The notes beneath the pieces were generated by a model. The model saw only the letters and a program-made list of their open reading frames with translations. It did not search any database and was not told where the DNA came from. A stretch of 42,989 nt of DNA from Treponema sp. Lineage in GTDB: Bacteria; Spirochaetota; Spirochaetia; Treponematales; Rectinemataceae. The stretch's first letter is position 1, and every line of letters begins with the position of its first letter. The stretch covers positions 1 to 42,989 of the forward strand of contig JAAYWE010000211.1 in assembly GCA_012516755.1 (NCBI GenBank). The letters are read 5' to 3'. Made by a program: the position numbers and the translations under genes. This document shows, piece after piece, positions 24,258-29,571 of the stretch.

Positions 24258-25544
24258 ATGTCCGATGTATTAGAGCAGAGTGCCATGGATGTTTTACCAA
24301 GAATAGAAATAAGCCCCATTCTATCGGCAATCGATTGTTTGCCTGAATGCTGTGATCAGGGCTTTTTGCAATCCAAGTTCTGGGGACTTTTTAAATCTCG
24401 CACCGGCTGGCAAGCCTATTCATGCACATACTCTTTCTATAATAAGGATTTGAGTGGTAGGATCCTTGTTTTGAAGAGGAAATTTGCAAAACTTTTTTCT
24501 TTTCTTTATGTTCCTTTTGGAGCAGCGGAATTGAGTTCTATTCCAGAGCGTTGGATTACTCTGGCTGCACTTGGGCGAGCTTTGGGCGAAGCTTTTGGTG
24601 GCAGAGATGTTTTCATACGTTTCGATTTGCCATGGGAGTGCGATGTAGATCCAGCAAAGACTAAGGAAGAAAAAAAGCCTGATATAGAAAATTCTTTGGG
24701 ATTCCATATTTCGGGCTTGTATAAAGGAACCGACGTTCAGGTGCCAGACACCGTCATCTTAGACCTGCGAGATGAAGAACAAAGAATATTAGCTAAAATG
24801 AAGCCTAAATGGCGCTATAATATAAGACTATCTCAAAAGAAAGGCATTTCTGTAGCAGACGAAGGTTTCTCCAGTCTTCCATTATTTATGTCTCTTTATA
24901 AAGAAACAGCTAGGCGAGATAGAATAGCTATTCATCCGGAGAGCTACTACAAGACTCTATTCGAAACAAGCTCTGAGATCTCAGAAGTTGCTCAAGAAAA
25001 TTCTATAACTACCACCAGGCCCCGTTTGTCTCTATATGTTGCTCGGCATAAAGATGAGGTTCTTGCATGCATAATTGTCTTGCATTTTGGAAATACCTCG
25101 ACCTATCTCTATGGGGCATCATCGAGCGAGAAACGAAATCTAATGCCTACTTATGCATTGCAATGGCAAGCTATTCTCGATGCAAAGAGATTCGGGGCAG
25201 ATAAATATGATTTCTTTGGTATACCGCCCGATGATAAAGATGCGTCTCATCCTATGGCCGGACTCTATCTCTTTAAGACGGGCTTTGGGGGAGAAATAAT
25301 ACATCGTTATGGAGCCTATGATATCAGTTTAAGGCCTTTTCTCTATTTTGCTTTTAGAACAGCAGAAAAGATGCGAAGCTTCTGGCACAAAAGGATCAAA
25401 AAATCTCTGAATAAAAAGACAGTTGGACTATCTGGTAAGGCCACAAAAGAGTCAACAATTCGGAATGTACATCAAGGGCAGGTATCCGAAGAGCTAGCTT
25501 CTTTAAGCTCCGATTCAGAAAACACGAAACCCTCGAATCCATAA
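24258..25544 (+). CDS. FemAB-family peptidoglycan interpeptide-bridge / lipid II aminoacyltransferase-like protein
   Basis: In-frame ATG at 24258; MKPKWRYNIRLSQKKGISV, YLYGASSSEKRNLMPTYALQWQAILDAKRFGADKYDFFGIPP are FemX/FemAB-like motifs. Confidence 0.82.
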   Translation: MSDVLEQSAMDVLPRIEISPILSAIDCLPECCDQGFLQSKFWGLFKSRTGWQAYSCTYSFYNKDLSGRILVLKRKFAKLFSFLYVPFGAAELSSIPERWITLAALGRALGEAFGGRDVFIRFDLPWECDVDPAKTKEEKKPDIENSLGFHISGLYKGTDVQVPDTVILDLRDEEQRILAKMKPKWRYNIRLSQKKGISVADEGFSSLPLFMSLYKETARRDRIAIHPESYYKTLFETSSEISEVAQENSITTTRPRLSLYVARHKDEVLACIIVLHFGNTSTYLYGASSSEKRNLMPTYALQWQAILDAKRFGADKYDFFGIPPDDKDASHPMAGLYLFKTGFGGEIIHRYGAYDISLRPFLYFAFRTAEKMRSFWHKRIKKSLNKKTVGLSGKATKESTIRNVHQGQVSEELASLSSDSENTKPSNP

Positions 25545-26050
25545 AGTCGCGCAAGAGGAGATTTCCATATATTGGAAGGGAGACCCGCCTTCCAGCAGAG
25601 CTGCTCTAAGAAAGTTTCTTTATCCCATCCAAATTCTATTGGCACTTGTGGAAGCAGTATTCCAGATCTTCCATTAGCATAGATGAGAAGACCATGTTTC
25701 CCTATCACAATTTCCTCTGGAGAGATCGGGTATAAGGGAGAGAGGAGGGTGATTTCTATCTCGATCAATGGAAGCTCCTCCTCGTGCAAGGGCGGAAAAC
25801 GTGGGTCTTCGAATGCAGCCGCAAGCGCCATCTGTTTTATAGTGCTAGGCAAATTAGCGTCGCCCTGGATTCTACCAATACAACCCCTAAGCGATCCATT
25901 TTTTTTCAATGTGACAAAGGCTCCACATTTTAGAGATGTAGAAAGGTGCGGAGGATCGATTTCCTTTTCGCCTTTCAACGAAGCATGTATTGTGAGGCGC
26001 GCATAATTCAATAGTTTCTTTTGATCCTCTGGAGATATTGCAAATTCCAT
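25472..26050 (-). CDS. AMMECR1-domain protein (AmmeMemoRadiSam system protein A)
   Basis: GAFVTLKKNGSLRGCIGRIQ, AAAFEDPRFPPLHEEELPLIEIEITLLSP motifs. Confidence 0.92.
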   Translation of the reverse strand: MEFAISPEDQKKLLNYARLTIHASLKGEKEIDPPHLSTSLKCGAFVTLKKNGSLRGCIGRIQGDANLPSTIKQMALAAAFEDPRFPPLHEEELPLIEIEITLLSPLYPISPEEIVIGKHGLLIYANGRSGILLPQVPIEFGWDKETFLEQLCWKAGLPSNIWKSPLARLYGFEGFVFSESELKEASSSDTCP

Positions 26051-26053
26051 AAT

Positions 26054-26875
26054 TTACCTCTTAAAACCTATTGCTCCATAGCCTACCACTAGCTCATCAC
26101 AGTATTCTCTGTGTTTCGAAGAATTATCATAATCTAGCAATTCTGCTCTTGCCTCTGGAAATGCAATCCTGAAGGCTCGAATAACTGCCTCTCCACAAAA
26201 GGAATTATAACAAGCTCTTACGTTTCCAGTAAATTCGGCAACTGGTCTGGAAAGAGAATAGATGAAATCCTTAGAAAGCAAATCACATTCTTCCGGAGAA
26301 TCGCTTACCGCAAGATTCGAAGATAGTACAAAGACAGCATAGTTTCCGATATATCTGCTTATTTCTTCAAACAATCTCGTGGCGGTCTCAATGGTCAGAG
26401 GATTCTTACCCGATATGATGCAAGGCAATATGGGCACCCCTGGGAAAAAATGAGATGCAAATGGCAATTGAAGCTCTATCGAGTGTTCTTCCAAATGTGG
26501 CAGATCATCTTTTTTCAACATGGGTATCTTGTTAAGGAGATAATCCCTGAGGTTCAAATCTATATTCAAGCAGGCACCCGGAATATCGAATCTTGTGGAT
26601 TCAGGAAGAAAAACACCATCTTCATAGGGCAGATGAGAAGGCCCCATAATGACGATAATTGAAGGATTCGAACCCAGAATTGCACCCCACGATTCCATGC
26701 TGATCTTCCCGCTGTAGAGAAAGCTTCCATGGGGAGCAATAATGCCAAATGCAGGGCATGGTATTCGCTTTGCATATAGACTAAGACCGTCTATTTCAGA
26801 CATTAGCATCTGCGGTTCAGATGGATAGAAAATTCCCGAAAGCAAAGGGCTTCGTGCGATTTTTTTTTCGCTCAT
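26054..26875 (-). CDS. MEMO1-family protein (AmmeMemoRadiSam system protein B)
   Basis: AGIFYPSEP-like start (SGIFYPSEP), APHGSFLYSG, GPSHLPY, EEHSIELQLPF, CG-containing C-terminus; adjacent to AMMECR1. Confidence 0.88.
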   Translation of the reverse strand: MSEKKIARSPLLSGIFYPSEPQMLMSEIDGLSLYAKRIPCPAFGIIAPHGSFLYSGKISMESWGAILGSNPSIIVIMGPSHLPYEDGVFLPESTRFDIPGACLNIDLNLRDYLLNKIPMLKKDDLPHLEEHSIELQLPFASHFFPGVPILPCIISGKNPLTIETATRLFEEISRYIGNYAVFVLSSNLAVSDSPEECDLLSKDFIYSLSRPVAEFTGNVRACYNSFCGEAVIRAFRIAFPEARAELLDYDNSSKHREYCDELVVGYGAIGFKR

Positions 26876-26994: not shown

Positions 26995-27315
26995 GTGGAA
27001 ACAGTTACTCAAGCTCTTCTTTATGAAGAAAAATTGCTTAGAAATCGCCTTCAGAGAGTCGAGAGCGAATGCGCATCGAGACCCAAGGGTAGTATTGTCC
27101 TGAAACGCAGATATAACCAAGTATATGCATATTTACAATGGAGGGAAGGCAATAAAGTATGCAGCCGGTATCTTGGTAGAGCAGATTCCTGGCAATGCAG
27201 ATCGATCCAAGCAAAGATTTCAGAAAGGCGAAAATACATGGAAGAGGCAAAGGAAATAAGAAAGAAGCTTGAGGCGACAAGGCATCTTCTAGACGAAGTG
27301 AGAAAATTCGGTTGA
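26995..27315 (+). CDS. Small conserved-type protein (KGSIxxKxxxxxxYxYLQWREGxKVxSRYLG motif)
   Basis: 106-aa ORF from GTG; RPKGSIVLKRRYNQVYAYLQWREGNKVCSRYLGRA resembles a widespread short family of unknown function. Confidence 0.6.
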   Translation: METVTQALLYEEKLLRNRLQRVESECASRPKGSIVLKRRYNQVYAYLQWREGNKVCSRYLGRADSWQCRSIQAKISERRKYMEEAKEIRKKLEATRHLLDEVRKFG

Positions 27316-27338: not shown

Positions 27339-28496
27339 ATGTCTGCAATGAAAGATATTTTTATAATGCACCACGCGGAGTATGATACAGCTCCAGACTG
27401 TACATCAGCTGCGCCAACTATAGTAAAAATATTAGGAGAGCACACTGATTTTGCCGATGGTCTTGTGCTTTCAGCTTCTCTTTCATTTGAAGTTCGAGTC
27501 GCGATATCTTTTAGAAAAGACAATTCTCTCCGTTTTTATGCAGCTGATTTCAATGAACGTAAGCGCGCAAATGTTGCCACATTTAAGTACAAAAGAGAAG
27601 ATCGCTGGGCTAATCATGTAAAGAGTGTGTGCGATTATTTTTGGCGCGTATTTAATCTTGATCCTCGTGGCCTCAATGTAACCATCCAGAGCAATGTGCC
27701 ACTGGGGCTTGGTTTGGGTATCAGCAGTGCGATAAATATGGCAACTGCGCTTGACTTAAAAACCCTATACGATTTAGACCTTAAACTTGAAGAATTAGCC
27801 TTTCATGCTTGGAAAGCGCAGAGTTTATTCTTTGAGAAAGAATTACCTCTAACAAATTATCTTGGGATTACTGCGCCTGCAGGAAGAAGTTTTTCGATCA
27901 TAGACTTGCATGATAAAAAGCGCAGAGGAGTGCAATTCTTACCTGAACGCTGGGAAATGCTTCTCACTGATTCCAAAGTGCCTCGCTCTTCGGTGGACGC
28001 AGAACTAGAACAGCGAATCGCAGATTGCAAAGCATGCCTTTCGGTTCTTGTCCCCTATCATAATCGTTCCATTCGCGATATAGCGCCTCAAGAACTCGAC
28101 GAATTGCTAGGAATAGTGCCTGAACGCAAACGCCGACGATGTCTACATGTGCTAGAAGAAGTAAGAAGAGTCATTGAAGCGGAAGAGAGTCTCTCGCGTC
28201 AGGATTATATAGGCTTTGGTCGAATCGTAAACAAATCCCATGCTTCTCTAAGGAGCCTTTATGAAATTTCCTGTCCAGAGATAGACTGGCTTACAAAGAG
28301 AGCGCTTGAGCTAGACGATGTTCTGTGTTCTAGACTCGTTGGTCAAGGGTTTGGCGGAAGCACGCTTACAATCCTCAATAATGAAAAAAAGCAAGCCTAT
28401 CGCAACAAGCTGGAAGATTATGAGAGAATATTCGGCTTTAAACCTATTATCCACGAAGTCTCAACAGGTGCAGGCCTTCGAATTCTGGAGCATTGA
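27339..28496 (+). CDS. Galactokinase-like GHMP-superfamily protein
   Basis: APTIVKILGEHTDFADGLVLSASL (GalK signature-like), VPLGLGLGISSAINMATAL (motif 2-like), GQGFGGSTLTIL (motif 3-like). Confidence 0.82.
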   Translation: MSAMKDIFIMHHAEYDTAPDCTSAAPTIVKILGEHTDFADGLVLSASLSFEVRVAISFRKDNSLRFYAADFNERKRANVATFKYKREDRWANHVKSVCDYFWRVFNLDPRGLNVTIQSNVPLGLGLGISSAINMATALDLKTLYDLDLKLEELAFHAWKAQSLFFEKELPLTNYLGITAPAGRSFSIIDLHDKKRRGVQFLPERWEMLLTDSKVPRSSVDAELEQRIADCKACLSVLVPYHNRSIRDIAPQELDELLGIVPERKRRRCLHVLEEVRRVIEAEESLSRQDYIGFGRIVNKSHASLRSLYEISCPEIDWLTKRALELDDVLCSRLVGQGFGGSTLTILNNEKKQAYRNKLEDYERIFGFKPIIHEVSTGAGLRILEH

Positions 28497-28534: not shown

Positions 28535-29296
28535 ATGAGAATTCTGCTGACAAATGATGATGGTATTCAATCGGATGGCCTTTTTGCTTTAATCGATACA
28601 ATTGCCGCAATGAAAGATTTCAATGGAAAAAGCTTGCACCAAGTATGGGTGGTTGCGCCTGAACATGAGCGATCCGGCGTGAGTCATGCCATGACTTTGA
28701 AAAAGCCGGCTAAGCTGCGTAGGCTTGGTGACTCGCGCTATAGCTGCTCTGGCACACCGGTGGATTGCATAATAATTGCGGGACTTGCTATTCTCCATGA
28801 AAAACCGGATCTAGTCATTTCTGGTATCAATAGAGGACCAAATCTTGGCACGGATATTGTATATTCTGGAACCTGTGGTGCAGCACGACAAGCCGCATTG
28901 CAAGGAATTCCGGCAATTGCCATATCATGTGCAGCTCATTGTGATAATTTGGAATATGAAGGTCTAACATCTTTTTTATCAGCTAATCTGAAAGAGCTTG
29001 TGGCCTTATGGAAGCCTGATTCCTTCATCAATATAAATGGTCCTTCTACAAAATCGAGAGATCTAAAGGCAGTATGGACTGTTCCAGGAAAAAATAAGTA
29101 CATTGACAACCTCAAGTGCTTTGACGGATCGGATGGATATACTTATTGTTTTCTCACCGAAGGCGCCGAAGAACGAATGCCCGATGCTCTCTCAGACCAT
29201 CATGCAATTTCTCAGGGTTATATTGCCGTAGGCTTAGTTGAAGTTCATCCCAGGGCATTCCACGAGCCATCTCTTAATGGGCAATTCGTATTCTGA
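28535..29296 (+). CDS. surE: 5'/3'-nucleotidase SurE
   Basis: MRILLTNDDGIQSDGL, VVAPEHERSGVSHAMT, YSCSGTPVDCI, VISGINRGPNLGTDIVYSGTCGAARQAAL. Confidence 0.96.
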   Translation: MRILLTNDDGIQSDGLFALIDTIAAMKDFNGKSLHQVWVVAPEHERSGVSHAMTLKKPAKLRRLGDSRYSCSGTPVDCIIIAGLAILHEKPDLVISGINRGPNLGTDIVYSGTCGAARQAALQGIPAIAISCAAHCDNLEYEGLTSFLSANLKELVALWKPDSFININGPSTKSRDLKAVWTVPGKNKYIDNLKCFDGSDGYTYCFLTEGAEERMPDALSDHHAISQGYIAVGLVEVHPRAFHEPSLNGQFVF

Positions 29297-29389: not shown

Positions 29390-29462
29390 GCCATCTTAGC
29401 TCAGTTGGGAGAGCGCGTGACTTGTAATCTCGAGGTCCCCGGTTCGATTCCGGGAGATGGCT
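29390..29462 (+). tRNA. tRNA-Thr (anticodon TGT)
   Basis: Cloverleaf GCCATCT..GCTC..GAGC..CGTGA-CTTGTAA-TCTCG..CCCGG-TTCGATT-CCGGG..AGATGGC-T; 73 nt. Confidence 0.95.
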
Positions 29463-29485
29463 CGAGGGACTTATGGTCCATCAAT

Positions 29486-29568
29486 GGGGAGATTCCCGAG
29501 TGGTCAAAGGGGGCAGACTGTAAATCTGTTGGCTGTAGCCTTCGAAGGTTCAAATCCTTCTCTCCCCA
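29486..29568 (+). tRNA. tRNA-Tyr (anticodon GTA)
   Basis: GGGGAGA acceptor pairing TCTCCCC, CAGA-CTGTAAA-TCTG anticodon arm, long class II variable arm, TTCAAAT T-loop; 83 nt. Confidence 0.95.
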
Positions 29569-29571
29569 CAA

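Follow-up and report, generated by a model that had tools for sequence, protein, structure and literature searches.

A surE-linked galactokinase homologue of Spirochaetia that probably lost its catalytic site in place and retained a second function

What can be the role of a galactokinase homologue whose catalytic residues seem to have been lost, and why is such a gene retained? The question is raised by an ORF at positions 27339–28496 (forward strand) of the window, the whole 42,989-nucleotide stretch from Treponema sp. analysed here, for which a first-pass annotation had proposed a pseudokinase, a sugar sensor or a GHMP kinase with a new substrate. As characterized by ORF call, Pfam/NCBIfam scans, profile-profile alignment and an AF2 model, it encodes a putative galactokinase-like pseudoenzyme of 385 aa; in most orthologues translation starts at the ATG equivalent to position 27348.

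Fold and active site of the window protein

The window protein scored above the cut-offs of the three Pfam domains GalKase_gal_bdg, GHMP_N and GHMP_C, and it carries both GHMP N and C domains within a GalK fold. NCBIfam GalK models were matched at E ~1e-56, far under every equivalog cut-off (TIGR00131, 178.9 bits vs 226.65; PRK05322, 186 vs 385). Its closest solved chains are those of human galactokinase. The AF2 model, built from a 41-sequence alignment, reached a pLDDT of 90.2 and a pTM of 0.90, and its best PDB matches were all galactokinases (TM 0.87 for human 6zfh and 0.90 for L. lactis 1pie). The predicted structure is thus a galactokinase fold. In fold, length and domain order the protein resembles the GalK of the Leloir pathway (TIGR00131), but it differs in its low score, in the loss of 10 of 14 active-site residues and in belonging to a genome in which no galT was found.

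Arg and Asp are the catalytic residues of GalK. The first-pass annotation had read the Arg as replaced by Ile and the Asp as missing, and had proposed an alignment of homologues; in both the profile-profile and the 156-sequence alignments, Ile28 and Asn173 fall on the two catalytic columns. Ile28 (codon 27420–27422), within the degenerate galactokinase signature APTIVKILGEHTDF (residues 25–38, 27411–27452, +), occupies the position of E. coli R28 and human R37. Asn173 (codon 27855–27857, within TNYL) occupies that of the catalytic base, E. coli D174 and human D186, where LPLTNY (residues 169–174, 27843–27860, +) replaces CGIMDQ according to the profile-profile alignment and orthologue columns. 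The ATP phosphate loop VPLGLGLGISSA (residues 120–131, 27696–27731, +) is also degenerate in the alignments, though not by an additional residue as had been claimed: it has a GalK-like length and aligns without gap to GalK VPQGAGLSSSAS, and two of three serines are gone (SSS to GIS), so that GLGISSA stands where GalK has GLSSSA. A GHMP pattern also fails on this loop, but little weight is placed on it, the PROSITE-style patterns used being too strict (only 11 of 22 normal GalKs pass).

In total, 4 of 14 canonical GalK active-site residues are left. Arg, Asp, two P-loop serines, the loop Glu and the sugar-contacting Tyr were lost in the window lineage; E34, H35 and D37 are retained in the window genus, GEHTD being unaltered, while Tyr223 is changed to Leu and Tyr38 to Phe. 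All window-genus orthologues read (L002–L008) are devoid of both Arg and Asp, and dN/dS lies at 0.03–0.09 among close relatives where computable, many pairs being saturated. Chance or a sequencing error is therefore excluded, and the window gene is under strong purifying selection. On the evidence of the alignments, the view that the window protein lacks a canonical active site and would be a catalytically dead GalK homologue is supported, with losses exceeding those first listed.

Loss of catalytic residues might equally be read as a decaying pseudogene or neutral remnant. This is hardly credible, since the frame is open in nearly all orthologues sampled, the gene is retained class-wide and it carries invariant new residues (see below); the dN/dS values, far below 1, led us to reject it.

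Linkage to surE and relation to the galactose pathway

Searching 148 genomes of class Spirochaetia with a profile yielded 111 hits that were carried forward. Orthologues are present throughout the class, most of which retains the gene; in family f7, with small and, judging by their size, Borrelia-like genomes, the profile search found no match to the GalK-like protein. All 59 sampled relatives gave a match at E 0.001, with a strong orthologue in only about 52 and other GHMP proteins in the rest. Rectinema subterraneum (80% identity) and MAG UBA8197 (96%) are among the named relatives, and the window genome groups with Rectinema. An 80% identical window-genus orthologue is also carried by contig JQDQ01000136 (L137), filed as Smithella sp. 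SCADC, pointing to a contaminated or misbinned record.

By comparison with an independent SurE search, surE lies directly downstream on the same strand in 94 of the 111 hits, with a median gap between profile ends of 31 bases. It is the most constant neighbour of the orthologues even across very diverged families, the feature that they share with SurE 5′/3′-nucleotidase loci, and it was found at none of 22 other galactokinase loci compared. The first-pass annotation had noticed surE as a neighbour in the window; the pair is conserved class-wide, which lay beyond its view. In the window, surE (28535–29296, +; Pfam/NCBIfam scans and neighbour comparison) starts 38 bases downstream of the galK-like ORF, and the NDDG and SGINRGPNLG motifs of its product are intact by eye. 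Directly upstream, a 106-aa YLQWREG protein is encoded (26995–27315, +) that has no Pfam/NCBIfam match; its gene adjoins the galK-like gene in only part of the window's family, although in many members. No class-wide regulator gene, whose product a Gal3p-type sensor would bind in a ligand-dependent manner, was found among the neighbours of the orthologues. Adjacent minus-strand genes (25472–26875) encode AMMECR1 and Memo family proteins (AmmeMemoRadiSam A and B), and tRNA-Thr and tRNA-Tyr genes lie just 3′ of surE (29390–29569), the ORFs listed there being chance frames over the tRNAs.

Galactose genes are absent from the surE operon. Consistent with the earlier remark that galT is not nearby, none accompanies the gene; the window genome gave no galT (PF01087) match above cut-off, and only 5 of the 57 relatives did. 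Six genomes with galT carry, on the contig of galT, a second ORF with the GalK signature. Thus the surE-linked copy is uncoupled from the Leloir pathway, and where a separate galT-linked GalK exists it would be relieved of its enzyme role.

Other galactokinase-signature proteins were met in the course of this survey. The other match in the window genome (L067, contig C331) is of a different GHMP type with GGNHTDH and CGLMDQ; its Arg and Asp are intact and it is truncated by the contig end. L120 and L122 (family f25), which are without surE link, are altered galactokinases: they read GELIDYS, have SLASSSS as loop and carry TSLSDH or TSLTDH where GalK has CGIMDQ, Arg and Asp being kept. L120 is sister to the ordinary GalK L115 in the tree described below, and substrate or function may have changed independently in these two proteins.

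The sugar-sensor part of the initial proposal fared less well than the pseudokinase part. A sensor of the type of yeast Gal3p, the galactose co-inducer, would agree with the intact GEHTD of the window genus and has a real precedent, Gal1 and Gal3 deriving from a bifunctional galactokinase ancestor whose roles were split after duplication (PMC5089864). However, D37, Y38 and Y223 of the sugar site are relaxed across the surE-linked family, and galactose genes are missing from the operon and galT from the window genome. Moreover, the inactivity of yeast Gal3 is tied to a Ser-Ala dipeptide that was lost once the gene had been duplicated (PMC5089864); in spirochaetes, it is a single orthologue that decayed at its own locus. 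We thus regard such a sensor as very improbable.

Clade, graded decay and a second residue set

A tree of surE-linked and other GalKs was computed without the motif columns. The surE-linked proteins form one clade of 94 rows (SH-aLRT 99), in which four canonical members, L223 and L251 (family f80), L228 (f77) and L232 (f78), are basal and the remaining 90 rows constitute a subclade (SH-aLRT 98); one of the 111 hits, G396, was placed outside. The window protein falls in this clade, next to surE and with the second residue set described below. The four basal members carry 13–14 of 14 GalK active-site residues, and their genes lie upstream of surE and of TPR and TPR/NHL genes (at L277, the TPR gene was not detected). 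The three that were scanned pass the NCBIfam galactokinase cut-offs (TIGR00131, 372–389 vs 226.65 bits), and in f78 and f80 the surE-linked canonical copy is the only galactokinase-signature match of the genome. Basal members of the clade are thus canonical galactokinases residing in the same surE operon, although their basal position could be inflated by slower evolution.

In the rest of the clade, decay is graded. Active-site residues kept number 1–10 of 14 in 128 degenerate members, vs 13–14 of 14 in other GalKs. Among 163 members, a set that over-samples Treponema-type genomes, both Arg and Asp are kept in 76, only Asp in 42, only Arg in one and neither in 44. The tree requires at least 5 state changes at Arg and 15 at Asp, or 7 and 17 losses if no regain is allowed. 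For the lineage of the window, loss of Arg precedes the split between families f1 and f4, and Asp changed to Asn in the window's genus. The replacements vary, with I, V, L, T, S, C or K at Arg and N, E, Q, A, S or I at Asp.

These figures also bear on the proposal of an active GHMP kinase with a rebuilt catalytic site, whose substrate, a sugar or another small molecule, would be new. It may draw on the retained GEH, on the 76 members with both residues and on the invariant charged residues that the family has of its own. The window lineage, however, has lost both catalytic residues together with the loop serines, loop Glu and sugar Tyr, and the variable replacements suggest that constraint was relaxed, not that a new site became conserved. 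For the window protein such a kinase is therefore unlikely, with only a small chance of being correct; it may apply rather to other branches, which keep Arg and Asp. Many Treponema-type relatives (f3, f5, L026) do so, and L049, from G039, which may be T. pallidum, keeps both while other sugar-site and loop residues are lost. Pseudokinase status would hence not be general, and the term 'dead' may not hold for these relatives.

Conservation comparison revealed a second set of residues, near-fixed in decayed members and not in GalKs. It comprises H11, E14, ERK73-75, K83, EDRWAN87-92, K95, P215, E262, R265 and R266, and further SCPE.DW311-317, K320, R321, E324 and YE.IFGF361-367. In the window, parts of this set lie in a family-specific conserved block ERK..KYKREDRWANHVK (residues 73–95, 27555–27623, +), in SCPEIDWLTKRALE (residues 311–324, 28269–28310, +) and in YERIFGF (residues 361–367, 28419–28439, +). 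At 32 second-set sites, degenerate members show 97% agreement, compared with 89% for the canonical surE-linked proteins and 28% for the other GalKs, bearing in mind that the set was picked for conservation in degenerate members and that its presence in the four canonical ones is partly shared ancestry. Since the latter agree at 89% of sites while being only 36–40% identical overall to the window protein, the second set most likely predates the decay of the catalytic site, as far as comparison of sequences can tell.

Constant adjacency to surE suggests a process shared with SurE. In its strictest form, the protein would be a dedicated regulatory subunit of SurE, in line with the short gap and the directly downstream surE in very diverged families. 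Nevertheless, the protein persists in 12 genomes where a surE match is absent, and those read keep 33–38 of 39 second-set residues; reciprocally, surE is present without a listed clade member in 15 sampled genomes. Persistence without surE makes a strict SurE subunit unlikely, and we would give it about one chance in several.

A proposed history of the gene and its meaning

Among these readings, we favour as the probable one that an ancestral bifunctional GalK lost its enzyme activity repeatedly in place while its second function was retained, the window gene being the Rectinema-lineage orthologue. That galT is missing from most relatives and that, in six genomes with galT, a second GalK-signature ORF lies on its contig supports both the bifunctional ancestor and the repeated enzyme loss. 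The ancestor would have been a galactokinase in which the separate conserved residue set served a second function; kinase activity would then have been lost many times at the same locus, helped in some lineages by the separate galT-linked galactokinase. Most likely, the decayed protein would bind a ligand or a protein without catalysis, as a regulator or scaffold that works together with the surE operon. As the hyperconserved ERK...KREDRWAN segment may, we presume, sit in the former GalK pocket on the side of the nucleotide base, a nucleotide-responsive partner or regulator could be a first guess for this function.

Such a history recalls yeast, where the enzyme role was lost and the second kept from a bifunctional ancestor (PMC5089864). 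Unlike yeast Gal3p, the spirochaete protein is bacterial, needed no duplication, would have undergone many repeated losses by a mechanism that is not the same, has relaxed sugar-site residues and is encoded next to surE, not gal genes. We found no description of a surE-linked galactokinase-like partner or family in open-access papers, the scope of our search (subscription papers and preprints lay outside it).

Database 'galK' labels in spirochaetes would mislead, some carriers being apparently without galT or another galactokinase-signature match. The clade offers a natural graded series from enzyme to pseudoenzyme at one fixed locus, repeated many times, in which a moonlighting-first route to pseudoenzymes is directly testable, and its conserved residues without catalytic role point towards a cellular function so far undescribed. 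More tentatively, with a chance that we place slightly below even, an early Spirochaetia GalK may have had an important second function predating decay, and retention of the gene in most of the class, Treponema pallidum apparently among them, would be due to that function alone, the canonical-to-dead series surviving in living species.
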